DNA from: a virus
Strand: one strand, 5' to 3'
Virus record (IMG/VR): IMGVR_UViG_3300034103_000888
Location: 1 to 40,265 of that record
DNA length: 40,265 nucleotides
Position numbers and translations under genes: made by a program
Part shown: positions 1,133 to 40,265 of the stretch, piece by piece
How the letters are laid out: every line of letters starts with the position of its first letter
How positions within the stretch are numbered: position 1 is the stretch's first letter
Notes under the pieces: generated by a model
Told to the model about the DNA's origin: nothing
Databases searched by the model: none
Seen by the model: only the letters and a program-made list of their open reading frames with translations

Positions 1133-1900
1133 TTAGTATTTGGATGCCTTGATCCGTTGTTGAACTTGCTCGAAGTATTCAGGGTTGTTGATTAAAAGAT
1201 TGCCTTTTGCATCCTTCTTTCCCATAGCTTCTGCAACTTCTTCCCTTGATTTGAAAGGACTATTGTCGGAACCTGCTGTTGTTGAACCTGTGAATAGTTG
1301 AGGCTCACCAGTCTTGACACCAGTGTTAGATTCATACAAAGCCTTAAGTGCTACGGCTGCGTGTTTAGCAGAACGTGGGTTGTTTAAAGCTTCGTTGTAG
1401 TAGTCAAGTTCTGCGTCACTTAGCTTCTCTTCCGCCCAGCTTAAGATTTGTTTAGAGCTGTTAGCGTCACCTAGAACGGCGTTGCGTTCCTTCCAAGCTG
1501 TTTGAACATCAACCTGTTGTTGTTCGCCTGCCTGTTTAGCAGAAGTGAAATCCTTCTCGCAGTCATCCATGTATTTTGTGATGACTGCTTCGGGGATACC
1601 GATTTTTTTTCCAATTTCTAAAGCTTCGTCTCGCTTGGCTTGAGAAAACTTGCCGTCTTCGCTGTTTGCTAAGTCGTCATTGAAGGACTGGTGGTCAAAG
1701 GGGGATTCAAGCGTTTCAGGAGCTTGCTCACCTTCTGTAGAGGATTCTTCTTGAGAGCCTTCTGCTTGACCCTGTACACCTCCGTTCGCTTCACCTTGAT
1801 TGGAATTACCTAGTTCACTGTCAGGCGTTTCTGTAGAGGTGTCGCTAGCCTCTGGTGGGCTTTCTAGTTTGATAGTTGTTTCGCTGGTTTGGTCTGCCAT
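1133..1900 (-). CDS. capsid assembly scaffolding protein (T7 gp9-like)
   Basis: A 255-residue acidic protein, rich in Glu, Ser and Gln in its first 100 residues and helical and charged after that, located immediately upstream of the capsid gene as in T7. It would direct procapsid assembly and then leave the head. The open frame extends to 1963, but the ATG at 1900 has a strong AGGAG site about nine bases upstream, and starting there removes overlap with the preceding gene. Assignment rests on position, size and composition rather than on a diagnostic motif. Confidence 0.82.
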   Translation of the reverse strand: MADQTSETTIKLESPPEASDTSTETPDSELGNSNQGEANGGVQGQAEGSQEESSTEGEQAPETLESPFDHQSFNDDLANSEDGKFSQAKRDEALEIGKKIGIPEAVITKYMDDCEKDFTSAKQAGEQQQVDVQTAWKERNAVLGDANSSKQILSWAEEKLSDAELDYYNEALNNPRSAKHAAVALKALYESNTGVKTGEPQLFTGSTTAGSDNSPFKSREEVAEAMGKKDAKGNLLINNPEYFEQVQQRIKASKY

Positions 1901-1913
1901 AAGAGGCTCCTTA

Positions 1914-2540
1914 CTAATTGAACCAGTTGACAAAGAAAGAATTGCCAACTCGCTGTACAACACATTTACTATTAGGGTCTAACGCTTGATTGCGTTCTCG
2001 CACGGCTTCTAGCTCGGGGTCTTCACTACCCAAAATGCTAGGGCTATCGCTAACAGAATCCCCATTATTGGAATGAGAATCACTACCCCCTCCAAGATCG
2101 ATGCTGGATGTATTGGGTGTGGGGTCTTGTTCCACTCCTCCCATGCCTTCACTTGTCTGCTGTGAATCCTCATCTCCTCCTCCGAAGTCCCCACTGGTGG
2201 AGTCGGTGGCGGTTGTGGTGGTGGATGATAAATTACCATTGGTTGAATCCTCTCCCTCTAGCTTGTCGTCCACGCCCAAAGCACTAGGGCTAGTATGAAC
2301 ATCGTTAATAAGAAGAACATCACCATTAGGAAGTCCATCATCGAATTGTGATTGTTCGCTTGTTGCTTCTTCCAGCGTTTCCAAAGTCTCAATTTCTCGT
2401 GGTAAGTCTCCCACTCCTTCTCCGATGCTTTCGGTTGGGGGAGGGGTGGTTCCATTGGTGGTATTGTCATCTGTGATTTCGTTAGGGGGAACATCAGTAG
2501 TGACTCCTTCCACTTTTGGTTCAGGTTTATTTCTACCCAT
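1914..2540 (-). CDS. acidic low-complexity protein between portal and scaffold
   Basis: A 208-residue protein rich in Thr, Ser, Asp, Gly and Pro and predicted to be disordered apart from a short C-terminal segment (residues 175-208, ending in aromatic residues). Its ATG overlaps the end of the portal gene by eight bases and has an AAGGA site upstream, which favours coupled translation. Two tandem small ORFs lie inside it in the +1 frame (2258-2494 and 2009-2239). Its own sequence carries traces of the same duplication (SPSALG and SPSILG). It is unclear whether this frame, the nested frame or both are expressed. The 95 bases below 2009 belong only to this frame, which supports it. Function unknown; possibly a minor virion protein. 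Confidence 0.5.
   Translation of the reverse strand: MGRNKPEPKVEGVTTDVPPNEITDDNTTNGTTPPPTESIGEGVGDLPREIETLETLEEATSEQSQFDDGLPNGDVLLINDVHTSPSALGVDDKLEGEDSTNGNLSSTTTTATDSTSGDFGGGDEDSQQTSEGMGGVEQDPTPNTSSIDLGGGSDSHSNNGDSVSDSPSILGSEDPELEAVRERNQALDPNSKCVVQRVGNSFFVNWFN
2009..2239 (-). CDS. nested small membrane protein, copy B
   Basis: A 76-residue protein read in the +1 frame inside the 208-residue ORF. It has a Pro-rich N-terminus (residues 5-15), a charged Trp-containing helix (about 18-38, with W at 32 and 35), and one hydrophobic segment (about 47-71) near the C-terminus. Its ATG has a GGAGAGGA site eight bases upstream. The same architecture and spaced residues (SEEE, H, WxxW, K) occur in the neighbouring copy A, so the pair arose by tandem duplication. 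The topology suggests a C-tail-anchored membrane protein. Possible roles include membrane attachment of assembly intermediates or a lysis accessory; no family was recognised. Confidence 0.55.
   Translation of the reverse strand: MVIYHPPPQPPPTPPVGTSEEEMRIHSRQVKAWEEWNKTPHPIHPASILEGVVILIPIMGILLAIALAFWVVKTPS
2258..2494 (-). CDS. nested small membrane protein, copy A
   Basis: A 78-residue protein in the same frame as copy B, ending 18 bases before copy B starts. A Pro-rich N-terminus (about 10-25) is followed by a basic amphipathic stretch with WxxW (about 28-45) and one long hydrophobic segment (about 50-75). Its start has an AAGGAG site nine bases upstream, one of the better sites in this region. 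It overlaps the 208-residue acidic gene entirely in another frame. Paralogy with copy B plus independent ribosome-binding sites argue that this is a translated gene rather than a chance frame. Confidence 0.55.
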   Translation of the reverse strand: MFPLTKSQMTIPPMEPPLPQPKASEKEWETYHEKLRLWKRWKKQQANNHNSMMDFLMVMFFLLTMFILALVLWAWTTS

Positions 2541-4137
2541 TTTGTAAGTTTCCTTGTACTTGATTGTTTACGAGTCCCCCAAGCTGTTTAACGCCTTCGG
2601 GGATTGCACTTTGCATGACTTGCTGTTGCATTGCTTGTTGTTGTTGAGCCTGCGTCTCTGCCTGTAGCTGCTCTTCACTTATGAGCAGCCCTTTAGGATT
2701 GACGTTGGCACTCAAGAAGACACGGTTCATAAACTCCGTAATGTTGATTCGTTTAAGGAGTTCAGGGGGAAATGCCTGCAATAACTGCAAGCCTTGTGCT
2801 GCTTCTGCCAGACGGTTTAAATCGTGACCACGCCCTAGTGCTTCAACCCCTGTAATGATAATGGGGTCTACAAACTCTCTAAGGCGACTGGGGATAAGCC
2901 CCTTCTTGTCACAGACATACATCTTCCTTGCAATGTAAGGCAGTTGTTCTTCTTGGTCGGCTAGCATAATGAAGCCACCCAAGCCGTCTTCTAGTTCACG
3001 ACGTAAAGCGTTAATCTCTACCGCTGTTACACGTTCTGCATCTCTCACGATACTGCTTGTCATCAGGAGGTTACGTTGGATGCGTCTTGAAATCTCTTGA
3101 AGCATCTGAAACGCAAAGGCAATATCAGCCGTCTTGTTGACCTGTAAAGGCTGTACGGCGTTGACTTCACCACGAACAAATTCACCACTCTTGGCTTTCG
3201 TTAAAGCTTTTTCTCTAACGGAACTACCAGGATTCACCATGAATACGGTTTTGGTTGCAATCTTAATGTAGGTGTAAAGGAACGTGGTAATTAACTCCAA
3301 GTTCTCTAAATCCCCAATAAAGCTTTCAACATAAGGTCTGCCGTAATCTTCACCGTCAACCTTTGTGGCTCTCACTGGCACATAGGGACACGCATATTCA
3401 GGGAATGAACCCTCACTGCCTTGTACCTTAACGCCCAAGAACTCCTGATGTACCGCCCAAACAGGGGTACTGCCATTCACAAAGCGAACGTGGGTGTAGA
3501 GGGGTTTCTTTTCAGGTTCAGTCGTGGACTTATCGTCGTAACGCACTTCTGCCAAGTAGATGTTCTTAATCTCTTCGGGAGCTGTGCGTGGGTCGATGTC
3601 TTCCTTCGTGATAATCTCAATCACACGCCCTAACGGATCACGCTTGACCACATAACGGCTCAAGTGGTACACCTTCATCGGTGCGTCTTCGGGGATATAC
3701 TGTAAAGCATTTCCTGTAATCAATTTGAGCTTTTGTGTTTCCAGTTGAGACGGTCTGTCTTTGGATGCCTCAACTTCACTCATCGTAATTTGTTCGAGTT
3801 CAGAGAGCATCTGTTCATCTTCGGTTCTTGCCTTGTCATCTGTCTGTTCCGTGTACTTCTTTTGAAGTTCAGGTTTCATCTGATACCGAAAGAAGGCGGC
3901 ATTAGGTGGGTATTGAGATAGAACAATCTTGTTGGCAAGGGTGTTGATGCCGTCGGCTGCCAAACTCACCTGCGGATACTCAATCGTGCTACCTGGTGTA
4001 AAGGAGCTTGTTTGGTAAATCGTTGGGATTGTGAGCTTGGCACACTTTTCAGCAGCATCTTCAAACGGCTTACGCACCGTTACTAAGGCATTGTACCGTT
4101 TGGCGGTCATGCCTGCTTCATAAAATAACTTTTCCAT
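2533..4137 (-). CDS. portal / head-tail connector protein (T7 gp8-like)
   Basis: A 534-residue protein matching T7 gp8 (536 residues) in size and gene position. It would form the dodecameric ring at the capsid vertex through which DNA is packaged and ejected. The N-terminal part resembles podoviral connectors (charged helices, then a segment around residues 40-90 on subunit placement); the C-terminus (about 490-534) is a Gln-rich helix typical of the connector crown. It lies after the gp6.7-like gene, and its last bases overlap the start of the acidic ORF. Confidence 0.9.
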   Translation of the reverse strand: MEKLFYEAGMTAKRYNALVTVRKPFEDAAEKCAKLTIPTIYQTSSFTPGSTIEYPQVSLAADGINTLANKIVLSQYPPNAAFFRYQMKPELQKKYTEQTDDKARTEDEQMLSELEQITMSEVEASKDRPSQLETQKLKLITGNALQYIPEDAPMKVYHLSRYVVKRDPLGRVIEIITKEDIDPRTAPEEIKNIYLAEVRYDDKSTTEPEKKPLYTHVRFVNGSTPVWAVHQEFLGVKVQGSEGSFPEYACPYVPVRATKVDGEDYGRPYVESFIGDLENLELITTFLYTYIKIATKTVFMVNPGSSVREKALTKAKSGEFVRGEVNAVQPLQVNKTADIAFAFQMLQEISRRIQRNLLMTSSIVRDAERVTAVEINALRRELEDGLGGFIMLADQEEQLPYIARKMYVCDKKGLIPSRLREFVDPIIITGVEALGRGHDLNRLAEAAQGLQLLQAFPPELLKRINITEFMNRVFLSANVNPKGLLISEEQLQAETQAQQQQAMQQQVMQSAIPEGVKQLGGLVNNQVQGNLQNG

Positions 4138-6051: not shown

Positions 6052-6840
6052 TTATCCTTCCTGTGGGGGTTGCCACAATATAATTTCTTTACTCTTCGCT
6101 TTGTAGTCTTTGGCTTGTAGAATGTACGCAAGCCGTGCCGTCTTAATGGCATCGTCTACCGTCATTCCTTTACTTTCATAAGCCTTGACAACACTCGCCC
6201 AAGTCCAGCCTTCTTTATCAAGCCACTTGGTCGCCGTCTTAATACCAAAGCCTTCACATCCCTTGTAGCCGTCACAAGCGTCACCCATGAGTGTTTGTAG
6301 TAGGTGAAACTTTCTAGCGTCTTCTGGGCTTACTAGCACGCTCTGCTCGTCATTGAATAAATCTTGAAGTAAGCCAGGTATGGTCTTCATGTCTTTATCA
6401 ACCGTCCAGATTGTTTTCTCGTAATCAGGCATGAACTTTTTAGATGTCGAAAGAATCCCTAACACATCGTCGCCTTCAAGTCGTTCAATCGTTTTGCACC
6501 TGTAATGCTTTGTAGCCTCATGTTTCACCTTGAGTAAGTGATTCGGTCTTGGCTTACCTGCTCTGTTGGACTTGTAAAAGGAGTCGATGTCTTTACGAAA
6601 ATTGCTGTATGGATCTGAAAACACAATCACGATGTCGTCAACAACATTTTTGATTGCATTTACATACGTTTCAAAGACTTCCCACGCATCATGGAAGTAT
6701 CCTTCAACGGAAGAGAAGTCGTCGGTCTCTGCGTCACCTGGAAAAAAGACTTCATAGACAACACCAGCACACGCCTTGTAGGCGAGAATGTCACCGTCAA
6801 TCAAGGCTAGTTTAGGCTTGTCCTTCTTTAGGTTGCCCAT
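6052..6840 (-). CDS. 5'-3' exonuclease (T7 gp6 / FEN family)
   Basis: A 262-residue flap/5' nuclease. The N-terminal metal site LALIDGDILAYKA (about 11-23), the central segment ERLEGDDVLGIL (about 119-130), the following TVDKDMKT loop and the DACDGYKGCEGFGIKTA helix-hairpin-helix-like region (about 187-203) are signatures of the family. In T7 this enzyme degrades host DNA, removes RNA primers and helps concatemer processing. The ATG has GAGGAG upstream. In T7 it follows the DNA polymerase gene; here it follows a methyltransferase and a phosphoesterase. Confidence 0.88.
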   Translation of the reverse strand: MGNLKKDKPKLALIDGDILAYKACAGVVYEVFFPGDAETDDFSSVEGYFHDAWEVFETYVNAIKNVVDDIVIVFSDPYSNFRKDIDSFYKSNRAGKPRPNHLLKVKHEATKHYRCKTIERLEGDDVLGILSTSKKFMPDYEKTIWTVDKDMKTIPGLLQDLFNDEQSVLVSPEDARKFHLLQTLMGDACDGYKGCEGFGIKTATKWLDKEGWTWASVVKAYESKGMTVDDAIKTARLAYILQAKDYKAKSKEIILWQPPQEG

Positions 6841-7633
6841 AACGACTCCTCATTTCTTCATAACTGATTTGTTCTAACTCAAAGCGTCCTTCTACCACGT
6901 TGTGCAACACCACTAAGCCCTTCCACCAAGCGTTGTTGTCGTCGCCTGCATAGTCTTGGTGGTGGTCAAAGTAACACCCTGCCACAACGATATTGATTTC
7001 TTTGCCTGTGGGTGTTCTATAATTTCTGTACTCAAAGCGGTGACTATGCCCTTGTACGCAAGACTGTTGCCAGTCCCTCGCAATGTGCATCGTCATGTAG
7101 TCGCCAGAGTACCCACGATTGGTTCCACGCTTGGTAAAGTAATGGTTGAAGATAACACCTTCTACCTCTACCCTCTCTTGGAAGTTGTAGAACTCCCACC
7201 CCTGCCCTGCTGCGTCGCTTATATCTTGCGTCCACATTCCATAAAGGGTTGGATTGTCTTGCATATAACGCTCTATGCGTTGCTCGTGGTTGCCTGCAAG
7301 GGCGATTAAGCGTGGCTTGTACACTTTGTGCTTAGATGCCTTTTGGGCTTCTTGTAGCCTGCGTAGGGGGGCTGTGACTAAACGTCTCGCCTCTTTGGCA
7401 CTTGCCATATCACGCTCAAGGCGTTTGTTCTCTGCTCGAACTGTGCCTTTATCATAGTGGCTTATGCTATTCATATCGGCAAAGTCGCCTAAGTCCACGA
7501 TAATATCGGGTCGTAGTTCTACGATTAACTGACCTAGCCACTCGTAACGTTCTTGTGAGACAAGGGGGTCGTCGTGACTATCTGGAATGACAAGAATCGT
7601 CTTGCCAAGCCTTTGTTTTTTTCTTTTACTCAT
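6812..7633 (-). CDS. calcineurin-like metallophosphoesterase
   Basis: A 273-residue protein with the ordered metal-binding motifs of the superfamily: PDSHDD near the N-terminus (about 16-21), DLGDF (about 47-51), AGNHEQR (about 112-118), a later His block and GHSHRFEYR (about 199-207). It would hydrolyse phosphoester bonds in a nucleic acid, nucleotide or protein; the substrate cannot be told. The ATG at 7633 (AAGG upstream) is preferred to the far upstream frame start inside the methyltransferase. It overlaps both neighbours by a few bases. It lies in the slot where T7-like phages usually carry DNA polymerase. Confidence 0.85.
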   Translation of the reverse strand: MSKRKKQRLGKTILVIPDSHDDPLVSQERYEWLGQLIVELRPDIIVDLGDFADMNSISHYDKGTVRAENKRLERDMASAKEARRLVTAPLRRLQEAQKASKHKVYKPRLIALAGNHEQRIERYMQDNPTLYGMWTQDISDAAGQGWEFYNFQERVEVEGVIFNHYFTKRGTNRGYSGDYMTMHIARDWQQSCVQGHSHRFEYRNYRTPTGKEINIVVAGCYFDHHQDYAGDDNNAWWKGLVVLHNVVEGRFELEQISYEEMRSRYGQPKEGQA

Positions 7634-8595
7634 TGATTCGCCTTGATTGGTTTTAAGAGGTGTGCGATCACATCCACCGTCCACCCATTACCGATAGCCT
7701 TGTACCGTTGGGTGTCACTGATTGGTGTGAAGCCTTTATAGTCCTGCATATCGCCTAGCTTGGTGTAGTTGTCTGGCAAGGTCTGTAAGCGTTCAGCTTC
7801 AATAGGCGTAAGCTTGCGTACAAGGTAATCACCGTCGGGTAAATCCACCTTATAAAGCCCAGTTTTGGCTCCTTGACCACCGCCATTCGCCGTCAAATTG
7901 ACGGACTTTCCTTGAATGGAATAGATGCGTTGACCTTGACCACCTTTACCGATATGCCCTAGTCGTACTGGTTCTGCAACCATTGTCCGTTGGCTTTTAA
8001 TGATGCTATTCCAAAACACGGCTCCACTATAACGTGCTGTCAAGCAGTGTGCCTTGTCTTGATACGGAATGCCAGACTCTAAGATGTCTTGCATCACAAC
8101 GCCCTTGTCCTGTGGCATCCCTGCAAAGGGTATGTTCGTCCAGTACAAGCGTTTGCGTTGTTGAGCGGATACCAACGAGCTGTTAATCTCGATAGGTTCT
8201 ACCCCTAACAGTTGGCTTACGGCGTTTCTCACATCCTTGTGAATAGAGGCGTTGTTCTCAACAAGAAAATACTTGGCGTTGGTCTCTTGAATTGCATCAA
8301 GCAATCTATGAAACAATTTGCCAGTCTCGCCGTCAAGGGTCGTCTCTCTGTCACGTTTGGCAATGGAGATACCTGTGCATGGGAATCCACCCATAACCAA
8401 GTCCATGTCGCCTAGTGCTTTAAAATCTGCATCAAACACATTCCCTAGTTGTTGAGTGTAGGGAAACCTTAATTGTGTAATTGCCTTAGCGTATTTGTCA
8501 ATCTCACACGCATAGTAATAATCGTAATCAATACCTGCCTTTTGCAAGGCAATCTGACCGCATGATATGCCGTCGAATAAACTTAATACTTTCAT
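7630..8595 (-). CDS. DNA (cytosine-5) methyltransferase
   Basis: A 321-residue C5 methyltransferase. Visible motifs are LSLFDGISCGQIAL (SAM binding, residues 4-17), GGFPCTGISIA (catalytic Cys, about 69-79), FLVENN (motif VI), QQRKRLYW (motif VIII, about 145-152), RKLTPIEAERLQTLP (motif IX) and YKAIGNGWTV (motif X), in canonical order and intact. It would methylate cytosine in phage DNA, most simply to evade host restriction. There is no adjacent endonuclease gene, so it is an orphan enzyme. Its position directly after primase-helicase is unusual for a T7-like replication cluster. Confidence 0.93.
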   Translation of the reverse strand: MKVLSLFDGISCGQIALQKAGIDYDYYYACEIDKYAKAITQLRFPYTQQLGNVFDADFKALGDMDLVMGGFPCTGISIAKRDRETTLDGETGKLFHRLLDAIQETNAKYFLVENNASIHKDVRNAVSQLLGVEPIEINSSLVSAQQRKRLYWTNIPFAGMPQDKGVVMQDILESGIPYQDKAHCLTARYSGAVFWNSIIKSQRTMVAEPVRLGHIGKGGQGQRIYSIQGKSVNLTANGGGQGAKTGLYKVDLPDGDYLVRKLTPIEAERLQTLPDNYTKLGDMQDYKGFTPISDTQRYKAIGNGWTVDVIAHLLKPIKANQ

Positions 8596-17472: not shown

Positions 17473-18480
17473 TTACTTCATTGCTACTTCAAACGCACGG
17501 CTCAAGGCTTCGGGGCTTAAGTGTGCATAACGGTGTGTACTAACGGTGGAGCTATGCCCCATTGCCTTACCTGTGTCAAACAGTGGTACTCCACTGCTTA
17601 CTAAGGTCGAAGCAAACGTGTGTCGTGTGACGTATGGGACTAGCTCATCAGGCAATTCTAGTTCTGCTTTCATACGGTTCCAACGCTTGTACCAAGACTG
17701 ATAGGAATAAGGGTAGAGTCTGCCGTCTGGCGTAGCGTAAAGCACACGACGCTTGATAAAGTCCCTTACCTCACCCATAAGTGGGACGACGTGTTGCTTG
17801 CCGTTTTTCATCTCTTCTTTAGGGATGACAATCATGTCCCCCTTGACGTGATAGGTTGACAAGTGCAAGGCGTTACGAGTCCTTAAGCCTGTCTTCAACA
17901 TAATAATAAACATCTCTTCAAGCTTCTTGTCTTCACGACGCATCCACTGACGGATGTCTTGGATTTGTTGATGGTTCAAGTAAATTTCTCGTGTGCTGTC
18001 CTCCTTCGTTCTCGGGATTCTGACAAGTCTTTCGATGTAGTCACCTTCCATGCCCCACTTGAGCATCAACGATAAACTAGAAAGCTTACGATTGACGGTG
18101 GTGTTTGTGTTTTCTTTCTGCAAGTGTGCCGTATAAACTCTAATCTTGCGTGTGTCGATGTCTTTAAGGGGTGTCTCTGCTCCGAAGTAGTCCAACGCAC
18201 ACTGCCCTCTCTGGCGTGATTTAAGTCCGTCCTTAGCAAACTGCCAAGTCTGATTCCAGACACCGTAGAGAGCATCCTGTAGCGTTGCCTCGTAGAGTCC
18301 TTGCTTGACGGCTGGTTTCAAGTTACTGATTAAGTCAACTTGTAGCCAGTCGCCTTGTTTAACGTAGAAGTCTAGGGTTTCTGCTTCCCTCAAGGTCTTA
18401 AAAGATTTGCGGACACGTCGTCCGTCTCTGCCGTCTGTAAATAAAACTTCAAATGAATTACCACGTTTAGAGATTGCCAT
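17473..18480 (-). CDS. int: tyrosine-type site-specific integrase
   Basis: A 335-residue recombinase. An N-terminal arm-binding/SAM-like region (residues 1-150) is followed by a catalytic domain with Arg in KTGLRTRNAL (about 199), a beta-hairpin Lys region (EEMKNGKQHVVPL), PYVTRHTFAS (Tyr in the usual first His position, Arg conserved), MGHSSTVSTHRYAH with the His and the nucleophilic Tyr (about 317). All but the first His of the RKHRHY set are present, and that substitution is tolerated in many integrases. The ATG at 18480 has AAAGGA upstream. Supports a temperate lifestyle; the partner attP is at about 15.9 kb. Confidence 0.93.
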   Translation of the reverse strand: MAISKRGNSFEVLFTDGRDGRRVRKSFKTLREAETLDFYVKQGDWLQVDLISNLKPAVKQGLYEATLQDALYGVWNQTWQFAKDGLKSRQRGQCALDYFGAETPLKDIDTRKIRVYTAHLQKENTNTTVNRKLSSLSLMLKWGMEGDYIERLVRIPRTKEDSTREIYLNHQQIQDIRQWMRREDKKLEEMFIIMLKTGLRTRNALHLSTYHVKGDMIVIPKEEMKNGKQHVVPLMGEVRDFIKRRVLYATPDGRLYPYSYQSWYKRWNRMKAELELPDELVPYVTRHTFASTLVSSGVPLFDTGKAMGHSSTVSTHRYAHLSPEALSRAFEVAMK

Positions 18481-18548
18481 ATTATCGATTCCTTTCATGT
18501 TCAATTTAGGGGTGATAGAAAGCCCCATTCTTATTTATGTTTTATGTG

Positions 18549-18839
18549 TCAGTCGATGCTCAAAAACTCTTCAAGGCGTTTGCTTAATTGATAAGTTTTG
18601 TAGATCCCCTTGTGTGTGTCACGGATACTCACTAAGCGGTGCTTGTGCATCTCGTAGAGGTGTCTTAGTGCTACTTGCCTTGTAACCATAAGGTACTGCT
18701 CCGCTTCTCTCACTGTGCAAAGTCCTACTTCATCTAGCCAAGCAATGATTACGCTATAGACTAGGACTGTGCCTTTCTTGGTGTCGGGGGGAACAAGTCC
18801 CCCCTCCTTGAGATTGTTACTCAAGCCGTTAATATCCAT
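18549..18839 (-). CDS. winged-helix-like regulator upstream of integrase
   Basis: A 96-residue protein. Residues about 25-90 read as a winged helix: a helix (GTVLVYSVIIAWLDEVG), then TVREAEQYLMVTRQVALRHLYEMHKHRLV, which fits a helix-turn-helix, and a short wing before YQLSKRLEEFL. The ATG at 18839 has the ideal AGGAGG ten bases upstream. Its place just before int suggests control of integration or excision, or of early transcription. It could be an excisionase-like factor. Fold assigned by eye only. Confidence 0.6.
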   Translation of the reverse strand: MDINGLSNNLKEGGLVPPDTKKGTVLVYSVIIAWLDEVGLCTVREAEQYLMVTRQVALRHLYEMHKHRLVSIRDTHKGIYKTYQLSKRLEEFLSID

Positions 18840-18840
18840 T

Positions 18841-19002
18841 CTACCAAAACCTCCTGAAACCGATTGAGACTTCAAACAAGCCCAATCCTATTGTAACATT
18901 GTGCCAGTTATAAAATCTAGCAACCTTTGAAAAATCAAACTGTAAATAAAATCCTTTCGTTCTACTGATAAATACTTGAAACACTTTTAAATCTAAAAAC
19001 AT
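18841..19002 (-). CDS. small beta-rich hypothetical protein
   Basis: A 53-residue protein found by hand: ATG at 19002 with AGAGGA about eleven bases upstream; stop TAG two bases before the ATG of the next gene. It is rich in Phe and Ile, with the C-terminal segment VTIGLGLFEVSIGFRRFW alternating in a beta-like pattern. The unbroken frame and tight junction with the next start support translation. Function unknown. Confidence 0.6.
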   Translation of the reverse strand: MFLDLKVFQVFISRTKGFYLQFDFSKVARFYNWHNVTIGLGLFEVSIGFRRFW

Positions 19003-22803: not shown

Positions 22804-23340
22804 TTAAAGTTTGTCGTAGTACCATTGCACTTTGTTTCTTAGGTAGTCCCCAACCTCTTCGGGCTTAAGCTTACGAATCACATTGTTTATAAGCAACGGA
22901 TAAGGTAGTGAGGAGATGTCGGGCTTACCACGACTTGATGTCTTAGGGTTCTTAAGTCCAAACTCATAATGAGTGTACACGGTGTCTGGTGCGATAGGGA
23001 TGTTGTATTGCTTGCAAAGATCCGCTATGGTGTAACACATGAGTTCAACTTGGTTCTTGGTAAACAAGGCTTTAGGGTTTGTAGGATGTCCGCACAAGGC
23101 GATACCGATAGCAAAGCTGTTGCCTCCACCACAATGAGCTGCATAAGGTTTATCAGCATCAGGCTTGTTGTAATGCTTCGCTTGCTTCCAAACATTAGGA
23201 CTAAGGACTCTGTTGTTTGCTTCTACAGGGTACTTGCCTCTTATGACGCTCTTGTTTGTGACAAGGAAGTGATAGTGTTCTTTGTCTGTGGCATTCGGGA
23301 TGAGTCCACCTGCCGTCCAGTGCATACAGATTCTTTTCAT
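22804..23340 (-). CDS. N-acetylmuramoyl-L-alanine amidase (T7 gp3.5-like endolysin)
   Basis: A 178-residue Amidase_2 enzyme. The first zinc ligand His is in MHWTAGG (residue 7), the second in YTHYEFG (about 118), and the acidic/third-ligand area is GKPDIS (about 138). The core NSFAIGIALCGH matches the family. It would cleave the amide bond between MurNAc and L-Ala, releasing phage. T7 gp3.5 also inhibits RNA polymerase; whether this one does is unknown. It lies after the terminase genes rather than between endonuclease I and primase, so it has moved relative to T7. Confidence 0.88.
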   Translation of the reverse strand: MKRICMHWTAGGLIPNATDKEHYHFLVTNKSVIRGKYPVEANNRVLSPNVWKQAKHYNKPDADKPYAAHCGGGNSFAIGIALCGHPTNPKALFTKNQVELMCYTIADLCKQYNIPIAPDTVYTHYEFGLKNPKTSSRGKPDISSLPYPLLINNVIRKLKPEEVGDYLRNKVQWYYDKL

Positions 23341-23594
23341 CGTGTGCTTACCTTTCTTGGGGGTAACTCGTCTTGGTCGTCGTCGTCATGCTTGAATGCA
23401 ACGTCTTCTGGGTCATAGTCTGGTGACTTCAATAGGGCATAGTTTAGGGATTCAATGTCATCAAGCCGCAAGTTGACGGTCAACAAACGAACCTCCGCAA
23501 TGCGTAAGTTGTCAAAAAGGATTACGTTTACGCCAATAAGCCAAGCCGCTACACTTTGAATCAGTAGGCTTGCAAGTGCCTTCGTTCTAGTCAT
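23337..23594 (-). CDS. small membrane-anchored protein, lysis candidate
   Basis: An 85-residue protein with one N-terminal hydrophobic segment (about 6-27) and an acidic C-terminus ending in a run of Asp (DDDDQDE). It sits between terminase and amidase, overlapping the amidase start by four bases. The plan, one N-terminal anchor with a polar helical body, fits an inner-membrane spanin or a T7 gp19.5-like protein; no nested Rz1-type lipoprotein is visible. Assignment is by context. Confidence 0.6.
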   Translation of the reverse strand: MTRTKALASLLIQSVAAWLIGVNVILFDNLRIAEVRLLTVNLRLDDIESLNYALLKSPDYDPEDVAFKHDDDDQDELPPRKVSTR

Positions 23595-25729: not shown

Positions 25730-25975
25730 TTAATCCTTGCTGTTGTGAAAACCAGCAATGACTCTCAACAACTCTTCATGGAGTTTGTAAGCCATTGTGA
25801 TGTTCTGTATATAAACTTGACGGTCTTCCTTATTGGATTGGTCTCTGCTTTCTAAAGCTTTGATGTGGATCTCCCTGTCGTTCTTGTTCTGCTTGAACAA
25901 CATAAACATGAAGACGAGCAAACCGCCTGTTGAGCCGACTTCTGCGACGGCTTTAATAAGTTCTAAATCAAACAT
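25730..25975 (-). CDS. holin-like membrane protein (BhlA-like plan)
   Basis: An 81-residue protein with one N-terminal hydrophobic segment (about 5-27, GGLLVFMFMLF) directly followed by KQNKNDREIHIKALESR and a charged coiled-coil tail. This layout is that of BhlA/UviB-type holins and related phage membrane proteins. It would permeabilise the inner membrane to release the amidase. It lies with the terminase genes, similar to T7 gp17.5 preceding gp18. A spanin alternative cannot be excluded. Confidence 0.6.
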   Translation of the reverse strand: MFDLELIKAVAEVGSTGGLLVFMFMLFKQNKNDREIHIKALESRDQSNKEDRQVYIQNITMAYKLHEELLRVIAGFHNSKD

Positions 25976-26032: not shown

Positions 26033-26197
26033 CTAGGTGGTAGGGTCTGTCCCTGTGATTGCTTTAAACAACTTGCGAGCAAAGTCTGCTACCTTGTTGT
26101 CTTTGTTGGTCTTGGTGACTTGTGCAACGGTGTGTAATACACGAATTGCAAGTCCAGCGAAAGTGACTCCTAATGAGCCAGCGAGAAAGTCTATCAT
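26033..26197 (-). CDS. small membrane-associated protein
   Basis: A 54-residue protein read by hand from ATG 26197, with AAGGA nine bases upstream. A hydrophobic or amphipathic N-terminal segment (about 2-28, MIDFLAGSLGVTFAGLAIRVL) is followed by a basic stretch and a helical C-terminus. It lies in the lysis region beside the holin-like gene and could be a second holin or antiholin. No family identified. Confidence 0.6.
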   Translation of the reverse strand: MIDFLAGSLGVTFAGLAIRVLHTVAQVTKTNKDNKVADFARKLFKAITGTDPTT

Positions 26198-37354: not shown

Positions 37355-39668
37355 AACGTCCTTCCCATTCTGCTTTTATAAAGGTTGCTGGCGTCCACGA
37401 TTCAGATAGAACTTCTATCTTCACTTGGTCGCTACGGTGTCGAATGAAGGTACGCAAGTTGCCAGAAGGCATATTGAGCTTGCCACTTTCAGCACTGAAC
37501 GAACCTGCCACAATCCCTGTAAAATTAACATCTGTTTGTGGATAATTGTTGGGCTTAATCTGAATCTTGAAACCGCCTGTCTTGGCATACGACAAGATGA
37601 TTGAAGACACCTGCAAGCGTCCCTGTGTTCTCACGTCTACCGTCCCTTGCGAGTTGGGAGTCTGTGCGTAAAAGTCAGAGAATCTGAACATGGCTGTGTA
37701 AGGGATTCCCCAGTAAAGCCTAGCCCCTGTGTAGTTCCCTTCAAGGATGACGGCTGTTGCTCCAACGCTAGGGAGGTTCCCTAGATGCTCGACAATATCA
37801 CCGTCCTTCACCGTAATAAGCTTCACACCCTCCATATAAGGCGGTAGCCCTGTAAAGGTTGTCTTGCCAGTGAGTACGTCATACGTCCCACCGATGAAGC
37901 TACGCTTACTGTCCAGGTGGATTCTGAAATCCAAGCCTTCGTCAAGGACACTCTTGTTCAGGTTGATTGATTCGATATTGAACTCACTACCACGTTTGAC
38001 CAACAAGTAAAGTGAGTCTTCCACGATATAGGCATTATAGATAAGGGCGTTGGGAAATTGCCACTGTGACCAAGCCTGTTGCTTGTATTCACCGTCTTGC
38101 ACATACCATTTGTAGAGGTAGAGCTTATTAGTTCTTGTCTTGGGTACGGCATACATTGCACTACGTTCTATATCAACCACCATTCTATCTATTTGAGGTA
38201 GATACGTTTCAACGTGTTGAGTCGTTGTGACCACTTGAAGCTTAATTGTATCGCCTGCACGAATTGCCTCACGAACGGTTGTGATGTCGCCTGTGGCTTT
38301 CGTGAATAAGACACTGTTTCCTGCAAAGACTGGTTGACAGTTGGCATCACACGCATAGGAGGTGGTATGGCTTATGCCGACCGTCTCTGTTGTGAGTGAT
38401 GTACCGTCGTCGTAAAGCAAGAACTGGTCTGTGTCACTGAATAAGATAAGCACATCGTCAAGGGTTTGAGCGTGTTGAATGTTCACCGTTCGGTTGGTTA
38501 AGGCTGTTGCGTCGATTGGATCTGTGTCAAGTACCGTTAAGGCTGTTTCCTTGAAGAAGCTAAACACATCGTTTGAGCGTGACAAGACAGGGCTGTCACC
38601 TGATACTAAACCGACTCTCCCTTTGTGGATGAAAACATTGTTGAGCTTCTTTCCAACAAAGCTAGGGAAAGGGATTGTATCGTCGTCTCCTGCGTCTCGT
38701 GGAGTCCAGTCTGCACGTTTGAAGGTAAATGTACCGTCTACGTTTCTTTGAATCACATGAGGCATCGTAGCCTTGTCTAGTTGGTGTTGTGCGTTAGGCT
38801 TGGCACATTCGAGCCATACCCCTTCACCCATTGTTTCACCGTTATGAGTCTTAAACTCAACATAGTAATTGTCTTTGTTGCTTTCACTGTCACCTAGTAC
38901 CTCAACCACAAATCCATTTCTAGCCAGTTTAGGTAAATCTGACACAAGAGCAACACTGCCTTTAATAGCAGATAAATTCCTGCCTGAATTAGAATCTTCA
39001 CACTTGATAGTAAAGTCTGTTGTGTTGTGGGTGATATAGATAACATGGTTGGCTCCTCCACGATCGGCTGTGAAACCTGCTGGGAGGTTGGCTGTGAGTT
39101 GAGTGGTTAAGTCTTGAGCAATGGTATTGGTTCTGATGTCTGTAGCGACTGACGCACTCGTTGTTTTGGTGGCTCTTGTGACTCCGTTTACAATCACATT
39201 GTAGTCGTTGGAGTAGTTGCCTTGCTTGACAAATACAAGAGCTTCAAAGGGACGTGCGGTGCTTAACGTAGCGGATTTAGCAACCGTCTTGGTTCTATTG
39301 AGAACGAAGGTAAACTCACCGCTTGTCATAAATCTAAAGTCATCTTCTCCACCTGCCAGATACGATGTACCGTCTGGGGTGGTGACTGTTTTCTCCACGC
39401 CTGCTAAATCAAAGATGCGTGGTACGCCTGCCACAATGACCAATAAAAACACATCCACGCCGTTAGGGCTAAAGAAGTGTGAGCGGTCTACCGTTGCTAG
39501 GCTGTTTAGCTTGGCGATAAAATCAGTGGGGAAGCGTTTGATGAGACTGTCTACAATCGACGGATTAAAGTTGATACACTCATCCACCTGCGAACGCTGT
39601 CTCAAGTTCTGTGGCTGTTGTGACACGCCTTGAATAAAGGAAGGGATTGACCCTCTAACGATTGTCAT
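37335..39668 (-). CDS. tail tubular protein B (T7 gp12-like)
   Basis: A 777-residue protein, similar in size to T7 gp12 (794) and located directly after the gp11-like gene. The N-terminus GSIPSFIQGVSQQPQNLRQRSQVDECINFNPS... (first 35 residues) is characteristic of gp12-family nozzle proteins (the GVSQQP segment). The body is beta-rich with propeller-like segments around 330-560. It forms the tail nozzle. The start overlaps the gp11-like stop by one base. Confidence 0.93.
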   Translation of the reverse strand: MTIVRGSIPSFIQGVSQQPQNLRQRSQVDECINFNPSIVDSLIKRFPTDFIAKLNSLATVDRSHFFSPNGVDVFLLVIVAGVPRIFDLAGVEKTVTTPDGTSYLAGGEDDFRFMTSGEFTFVLNRTKTVAKSATLSTARPFEALVFVKQGNYSNDYNVIVNGVTRATKTTSASVATDIRTNTIAQDLTTQLTANLPAGFTADRGGANHVIYITHNTTDFTIKCEDSNSGRNLSAIKGSVALVSDLPKLARNGFVVEVLGDSESNKDNYYVEFKTHNGETMGEGVWLECAKPNAQHQLDKATMPHVIQRNVDGTFTFKRADWTPRDAGDDDTIPFPSFVGKKLNNVFIHKGRVGLVSGDSPVLSRSNDVFSFFKETALTVLDTDPIDATALTNRTVNIQHAQTLDDVLILFSDTDQFLLYDDGTSLTTETVGISHTTSYACDANCQPVFAGNSVLFTKATGDITTVREAIRAGDTIKLQVVTTTQHVETYLPQIDRMVVDIERSAMYAVPKTRTNKLYLYKWYVQDGEYKQQAWSQWQFPNALIYNAYIVEDSLYLLVKRGSEFNIESINLNKSVLDEGLDFRIHLDSKRSFIGGTYDVLTGKTTFTGLPPYMEGVKLITVKDGDIVEHLGNLPSVGATAVILEGNYTGARLYWGIPYTAMFRFSDFYAQTPNSQGTVDVRTQGRLQVSSIILSYAKTGGFKIQIKPNNYPQTDVNFTGIVAGSFSAESGKLNMPSGNLRTFIRHRSDQVKIEVLSESWTPATFIKAEWEGRYASRKN

Positions 39669-40201
39669 TATAAGCCCTCTAATAAGTTGTATTGACCAAC
39701 ACTGTTGTCCCAGTTCCTTAAGCGTAACAAGGCTTGCTGTTCTTCTAAAGCAAGTGTCTGTGTCATTGTGGAGTCGCCTAAGAAGCGTTCCTGAAAACGA
39801 CGTACCAATAACGACTTAACATACAAGGCAAAGGGAGCTGGCGTCTCTTCAAAAGGGACAAGGCGTATGACCTCTGCTGTGACATCACTTGTGAACACAT
39901 CTGTTTGTGTAGATTGATTGTAAAGCTTGCCGTTACGGACTTGTACGGTGGGAGTCCCCACTGAACGCACGTTGATATAGTTTGAAGGAATTGTGATATA
40001 CCCTGTGAGGCTGTTTGGTGTGAGTACCAAGTTGTCATCGGTATTGAACGCCCAGCCTTCGGATTGAATCTCTTCGTTGATTTCATCAAGAAGAATCAAG
40101 GCTTGCGTCGCATCAATATCTAAAGCGTCTTCAAGTGTTGCCACAAGTTGCTGACCTATCGCAAGCAGGGAGGCATTGACTGCCTGTAATTTAGTGACCA
40201 T
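39668..40201 (-). CDS. tail tubular protein A (T7 gp11-like)
   Basis: A 177-residue adaptor that links portal to nozzle. The N-terminal MVTKLQAVNASLLAIG, the INEEIQSEGWAFNTD segment (about 42-56) and the C-terminal LLRLRNWD fit gp11-type head-tail adaptors (196 residues in T7). AGGAAA precedes the ATG, and the TATAGG of a promoter-like octamer overlaps it. Its first 21 codons are repeated at the start of the window owing to the contig overlap. Confidence 0.9.
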   Translation of the reverse strand: MVTKLQAVNASLLAIGQQLVATLEDALDIDATQALILLDEINEEIQSEGWAFNTDDNLVLTPNSLTGYITIPSNYINVRSVGTPTVQVRNGKLYNQSTQTDVFTSDVTAEVIRLVPFEETPAPFALYVKSLLVRRFQERFLGDSTMTQTLALEEQQALLRLRNWDNSVGQYNLLEGL

Positions 40202-40265
40202 GTTTGGTTTCCTATAAGCCAGTAAGCCCCCACTTCGTAAAAGTAGGGGCGTGTGGTTGATTAGA
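40139..40265. repeat. terminal redundancy of contig (copy 2)
   Basis: Exact second copy of bases 1-127. It includes the first 21 codons of the gp11-like gene and the capsid-gp11 intergenic hairpin (here 40226-40250). Treat as an assembly overlap. Confidence 0.95.

Follow-up and report, generated by a model that had tools for sequence, protein, structure and literature searches.

Putative dual coding and tandem duplication of nested membrane-protein ORFs between the portal and scaffold genes of a T7-like phage

Organization of the portal-scaffold locus

The DNA between the portal and scaffold genes of an uncultured T7-like phage of the Autographivirales type contains an acidic open reading frame, ORF208, within which two short membrane-protein ORFs, ORF78 and ORF76, are nested in a different frame (Table 1). 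An earlier note, made by a model from the DNA letters, had described the three ORFs, and its coordinates, lengths, shared frame of the pair and nesting in the 208-residue ORF are all exact. The late genes are encoded on the minus strand in the order portal, ORF208 locus, scaffold and major capsid (130-1092). The gene junctions on both sides of the locus are tight: the ATG of ORF208 lies 8 nt inside the end of the portal gene, and its stop codon is 13 nt before the ATG of the scaffold gene at 1900, which is preceded by TAAGGAG. The ORF208 protein is presumably disordered. The last part of ORF208, just ahead of the scaffold ribosome site, can form a 9-bp stem (AGTTGGCAA/TTGTCAACT, with one G-U pair; 1914-1955, minus strand). 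The fold of 1860-1975 has a z-score of -1.5 and is therefore weak evidence for a processing or regulatory hairpin.

ORF78 and ORF76 share one plan, composed of a Pro-rich head, a helix with the pattern SExE...WxxWxK, and a C-terminal hydrophobic helix, with hydropathy maxima of 2.78 and 2.83, respectively. The likeness, proposed in the earlier note, is above chance: the BLOSUM62 score of the pair is 84, whereas shuffles that keep the head, helix and membrane plan average 37.5 (P=0.0003). The AlphaFold prediction of the nested protein, based on the four available sequences, contains helices 20-38 and 46-73, with a mean pLDDT of 75. Neither protein contains cysteine. Each ORF has its own ATG and its own Shine-Dalgarno sequence, in agreement with the ribosome sites noticed earlier; both spacers are 9 nt long, and the longest AAGGAGG-type runs are 6 nt for ORF78 and 4 nt, within GGAGAGG, for ORF76. 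No sigma-70-like promoter was found inside the region, and the RNA folds at the nested starts are unremarkable.

Table 1 Features of the portal-scaffold locus
Feature	Positions	Strand	Description
Portal (head-tail connector), upstream	2533-4137	-	PHROG 449 E=3e-136; Pfam Head-tail_con E=7e-54
Shine-Dalgarno AAGGA of ORF208	2551-2555	-	
ORF208, 208 aa	1914-2540	-	Acidic, pI 4.1; Ser/Thr/Gly/Asn-rich
Shine-Dalgarno AAGGAG of ORF78	2504-2509	-	9-nt spacer; longest AAGGAGG-type run 6 nt
ORF78, 78 aa	2258-2494	-	+1 frame of ORF208, wholly inside; Pro-rich head, Trp-containing helix, C-terminal membrane helix
Copy 1, aligned part of tandem in-frame duplication	2250-2462	-	Codon alignment
Shine-Dalgarno-like GGAGAGG of ORF76	2249-2255	-	Directly after ORF78 stop; 9-nt spacer
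ORF76, 76 aa	2009-2239	-	+1 frame, wholly inside ORF208; ORF78 paralogue, same plan
Copy 2, aligned part of tandem in-frame duplication	2001-2222	-	Codon alignment
Scaffold, downstream	1133-1900	-	PHROG 1018 head scaffolding protein E=2e-8

The window, which is the whole stretch of 40,265 nucleotides analysed (IMG/VR record IMGVR_UViG_3300034103_000888), begins and ends with the same 127 nt (1-127 and 40139-40265). Because this terminal direct repeat is exact, we regard the record as complete, in the form of a circular or terminally redundant assembly. The genome encodes a T7-type RNA polymerase (PHROG 414), portal, scaffold, major capsid, terminase and primase-helicase. Among named phages, Pseudomonas phage LUZ100 is the closest by RNA polymerase (38.6% identity); it is a T7-like phage with temperate features (PMC10134795), and the phage described here is of the same temperate T7-like type. 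An amidase endolysin is encoded at 22804-23340 (Pfam Amidase_2 E=1e-10), about 20 kb from the nested ORFs, and other small membrane ORFs are located around the terminase gene (26033-26197, 25730-25975 and 23337-23594). No DNA polymerase of family A, B or C was found in the apparently complete T7-like genome (window 1-40265); at the place where the T7-like gene order has it (6052-8595), between the primase-helicase and the 5'-3' exonuclease, there are instead a C5 cytosine methylase and a metallophosphoesterase. Upstream of the T7-type RNA polymerase in the gene order are a tyrosine integrase and, adjacent to it, a weak MarR-like ORF (17473-18875, minus strand).

Tandem duplication of the overlap

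The repeated motifs SPSALG and SPSILG, which the earlier note had pointed out in ORF208, are part of a longer, diverged, in-frame DNA duplication. A codon-unit alignment of the two copies spans 71 codons and scores 30.4, compared to 18.7 for the best of 200 codon shuffles. The best-conserved pieces of the copies, 2029-2046 and 2275-2292, are spaced by 246 nt. The DNA identity between the copies is about 52%, and amounts to 0.56, 0.46 and 0.61 at ORF208 codon positions 1, 2 and 3, respectively. Compared as proteins, the two halves in the ORF208 frame have no significant similarity (P=0.13). The codon-alignment and nested-protein scores therefore indicate a genuine and old in-frame tandem duplication by which both frames were copied. 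As judged from the aligned copies, a duplication of about 0.24 kb is what produced the pair.

Synonymous changes to ORF208 seldom yield a comparable pair. When its synonymous codons were shuffled, a pair of ATG ORFs, each 60 aa or longer and with a membrane segment, appeared in 0.06% of the trials, and when it was recoded by the genome codon usage, such a pair appeared in 0 of 5000, which gives at most 6 cases per 10,000 synonymous trials overall. Recoding yields a single such membrane ORF in 6-18% of cases, which is not a rare event, and the duplication of a chance ORF therefore needed separate examination. Of the 11 nested ORFs of 50 aa or more that start with ATG on the minus strand of the window, only one other than the pair combines a Shine-Dalgarno run of at least 4 nt with a hydropathy above 2 (50 aa, 38894-39046). 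In 533 kb of coding sequence from relatives, the thresholds of 4 nt and hydropathy 2.2 are passed by three nested ORFs of 50 aa or more.

Constraint on the two reading frames

The wobble bases of ORF208 are position 2 of the nested membrane frame. Because the DNA duplication confounds any comparison of the copies in the nested frame that keeps ORF208 fixed, we used the identity at codon positions instead. In an alignment blind to wobble, 41 of 70 ORF208 wobble bases (59%) are identical between the copies, whereas 28-31 of 70 (about 42%) are expected from shuffling within blocks of 4-12 codons (P<=0.001; P<=0.0008). The wobble bases are thus conserved as much as positions 1 and 2. At codons for which the copies have different ORF208 residues, the wobble bases agree in 52-55% of cases, compared to 25% expected from the genome wobble frequencies. 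Shifting one copy by 1 to 5 codons reduces the agreement to 34-46%. If the DNA encoded only ORF208, the wobble position would be the least conserved; its conservation is what chiefly speaks for selection on the membrane frame.

The ORF208 frame bears its own marks of coding. With the membrane proteins held fixed, it stays open with P=0.002 under the genome codon usage, but with just P=0.098 if the codon pools are kept. The wobble positions of the nested frame contain 44 G, compared to 24.2 expected, and 16 T, compared to 38.8 expected. This G-rich, T-poor composition is the codon-position-1 pattern of the phage and a signature of ORF208. The codon score of the ORF208 frame is 0.27 in the ORF78 half and a weaker 0.11 in the ORF76 half, whereas the nested frames score -0.03 and -0.20, like ordinary +1 frames. 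ORF208 correlates with the genome codon frequencies at 0.35 and the nested frame at 0.08; for other genes, the true frames lie at 0.43-0.78. By codon usage, a criterion reviewed in PMC8227390, ORF208 is likely the older frame, on which the membrane frame would have been overprinted.

The wobble conservation, the recoding test and the position-1 signature indicate that both frames of the same DNA are under constraint. To this extent the sequence tests bear out the dual-coding region proposed in the earlier note, with translation of the nested frame being putative. The note had also attributed the dual coding to DNA duplication. The codon alignment confirms a duplication at the DNA level, and both frames are constrained, but the origin of the overlap is a different matter: the evidence supports the overlap first and the duplication second, so that the duplication doubled a unit already coding in two frames.

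Relatives and the portal-scaffold slot

Searches with the ORF208, ORF78 and ORF76 proteins yielded no match by tblastn against 50,697 phage records, no significant match in Pfam and PHROGs, and one weak, sub-threshold match of ORF78 in NCBIfam (E=0.012, 15.7 bits compared to a cut-off of 80). Scans of viral contigs with each nested protein, their alignment, the capsid and the scaffold found the locus only in one close relative, and a scan of genome contigs with the nested pair found none. Portal scans provided 187 loci, all of which, except for the close relative, are just 27-41% identical.

The sole close relative (IMGVR_UViG_3300037189_004884; L031, the same as L001) has a portal protein 98% identical, and its contig runs across the terminal-repeat junction. 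Every frame, start and ribosome site is kept in this genome; none of the losses that the earlier note had named as evidence against dual coding occurred in the one 98% relative examined. The relative differs by 7 base changes in ORF208 (1.1%), compared to 3.9% in the portal and 3.3% in the scaffold gene. Four of 162 ORF208 wobble bases are changed, compared to 74 of 791 in the portal and scaffold genes together (Fisher P=0.002), in a single relative that is too close for a real selection test. The short flank outside the overlap likewise has few changes, as does the capsid gene (1.6%); local recombination may therefore play a part.

At the distant portal loci, which are 27-41% identical, the space between the portal and scaffold genes, here called the slot, is in most cases empty or occupied by a gene of 36-96 aa. 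No strong membrane ORF was found in the slot in a subset of the portal-scan loci, those whose portal was located automatically, and no small ORF combining WxxWxK with a membrane segment was found in any fetched locus. Most slot proteins contain a C-terminal G-hydrophobic-aromatic motif. In L063, L078, L121-L198, LUZ100, RHEph21 and ProddE, the motif reads G-hydrophobic-x-hydrophobic-x-aromatic and follows a low-complexity stretch. The small portal-scaffold gene of many Autographivirales seems to be one widespread, uncharacterised head-operon family.

ORF208 has the position of these slot proteins, right after the portal and before the scaffold gene. Its C-terminus had looked like theirs by eye, but membership in the family failed the test with an HMM built from 28 slot proteins: ORF208 scores -1.2 bits, compared to 6-20 bits for members, and 72% of decoys reach its score. 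The score in a simpler anchored motif is borderline (P about 0.04-0.06). Given its position and its overlap with the portal stop, but lacking the motif, ORF208 is therefore placed in the slot and not in the family. We propose that it is probably a fast-evolving occupant of the small-gene slot.

Proposed origin and function of the locus

We favor the explanation, to which we assign a probability of roughly 70%, that the locus is dual-coding, and that a membrane ORF was overprinted on ORF208 before a tandem duplication copied both frames. The starting state would have been an acidic ORF208 gene in the portal-scaffold slot, in the +1 frame of which a short membrane-protein ORF arose. The in-frame duplication of about 0.24 kb would then have lengthened the acidic protein and turned the membrane protein into two paralogues, which diverged yet retained their starts, ribosome sites and plan. 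ORF208 would be translated after the portal gene, and each of the two internal ATGs would serve for a separate initiation by ribosomes. Both small proteins would be inserted in the inner membrane so that their Pro-rich and Trp-containing part faces the cytoplasm, and would be expressed late, together with the head genes.

A simpler explanation is that only ORF208 is a gene and the nested ORFs are by-products of its composition, since one base on, T-ending Asp, Ser and Asn codons read as hydrophobic residues and C-ending Thr codons as Pro. A chance ORF, once duplicated, would be seen twice. The frequency of single membrane ORFs in recoded ORF208 and the codon usage of the nested frame, which resembles an ordinary +1 frame, agree with this. 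However, the wobble bases should then diverge freely, yet they are conserved between the copies, and the ATG, ribosome site, openness and strong hydropathy are kept in both copies despite the DNA identity of about 52%. We consider this explanation unlikely. The reverse case, in which ORF78 and ORF76 are ordinary tandem paralogues and ORF208 is a spurious open frame, is very unlikely in our judgment. A layout without ORF208 is plausible, with gaps of 38, 18 and 108 nt; the openness of ORF208 is not striking when the codon pools are kept, and the motif of the slot proteins is absent. Against it, ORF208 has its own ribosome site and the codon-position signature of the phage, starts inside the portal gene by the same 8 nt as LUZ100 gp35, and ends just before the scaffold gene.

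It is quite unlikely, on anatomical grounds, that the membrane pair is the main holin/antiholin or a spanin pair nested like Rz1 in Rz. A small gene embedded in the +1 frame, with a Shine-Dalgarno sequence and a membrane segment, is a typical form of phage lysis gene (PMC6139136, PMC7693330), and LUZ100 has no recognisable spanin. However, the absence of cysteine excludes a lipobox, the membrane helix is C-terminal, and the amidase endolysin and the small membrane ORFs around the terminase gene are located elsewhere. As a two-component spanin (Rz/Rz1), the pair lacks both the lipobox cysteine of the o-spanin and the N-terminal membrane helix that goes with a periplasmic coiled coil in the i-spanin. 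The C-terminal membrane helix would suit a u-spanin, but the N-terminal lipobox is absent. A main holin/antiholin would be expected in or beside the lysis cassette, from which the genes are remote. The anatomy fits an embedded Sgl/amurin, but phages with such genes lyse without an endolysin, and this phage has an amidase endolysin.

Under the favored explanation of an overprinted and then duplicated membrane ORF, we speculate that the nested proteins might be late membrane effectors that help or time lysis, a possible role suggested by the embedded lysis-gene hallmark and by a paralogous membrane pair that would fit an effector and a modulator. The amidase endolysin, the other small membrane ORFs around the terminase gene and the missing spanin features speak against this role. 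The pair may instead act in superinfection exclusion or be associated with the virion. Even more tentatively, both frames of the duplicated dual-coding unit might have diverged as functional paralogues, which would give a matched pair of overprinted membrane proteins, for example an effector and its modulator, translation-coupled to the head-operon protein in which they are nested.

Overprinting and gene duplication are commonly viewed as two distinct routes to new genes. A duplicated overlap is an internal replicate, as one genome contains two diverged copies of the same dual-coding DNA, so that constraint at each codon position can be assessed even when no family of relatives is at hand. If it is expressed, the pair would consist of membrane proteins that gene finders miss, encoded within a head-operon gene of a T7-like phage. 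A described phage case of a tandemly duplicated overlap was not found in a small literature sample.

Comparison with known systems

The hallmark used for finding lysis genes of ssRNA phages is a small ORF embedded in the +1 frame with a Shine-Dalgarno sequence and a membrane segment (PMC7693330). The nested pair has this embedded Sgl/amurin anatomy, and the Sgl genes, likewise small, often in the +1 frame and with one membrane segment, are similar also in their de novo origin and in that two per genome are known in Beihai9 (PMC7693330). Unlike the phages that use Sgl for single-gene lysis without an endolysin, the phage described here has dsDNA and an amidase endolysin, and its nested ORFs are paralogues made by duplication. 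Embedded Rz/Rz1 spanins and u-spanins (PMC6139136) are likewise small membrane genes that are entirely contained in another gene and read in a different frame; the C-terminal membrane helix is shared with u-spanins, and the Pro-rich stretch with o-spanins. The nested proteins differ from the spanins in having no cysteine or lipobox and no N-terminal helix of the i-spanin type, and in their location outside the lysis cassette (PMC6139136).

ORF208 resembles the slot proteins LUZ100 gp35, RHEph21 and ProddE in its position, its overlap with the portal end (8 nt in LUZ100), and its hydrophilic, low-complexity make-up. The slot proteins, however, are usually 36-96 aa long, compared to the 208 aa of ORF208, have a conserved C-terminal motif, and contain no nested membrane ORF. 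The locus shares with overprinted viral genes a codon usage of the novel frame that is far from that of the genome, a narrow distribution, and disorder, presumed here for ORF208, in one of the overlapping products (PMC8227390). Overprinted phage genes are already known; unlike the overprinted viral genes of PMC8227390, the overlap described here is itself tandemly duplicated and diverged in both frames.
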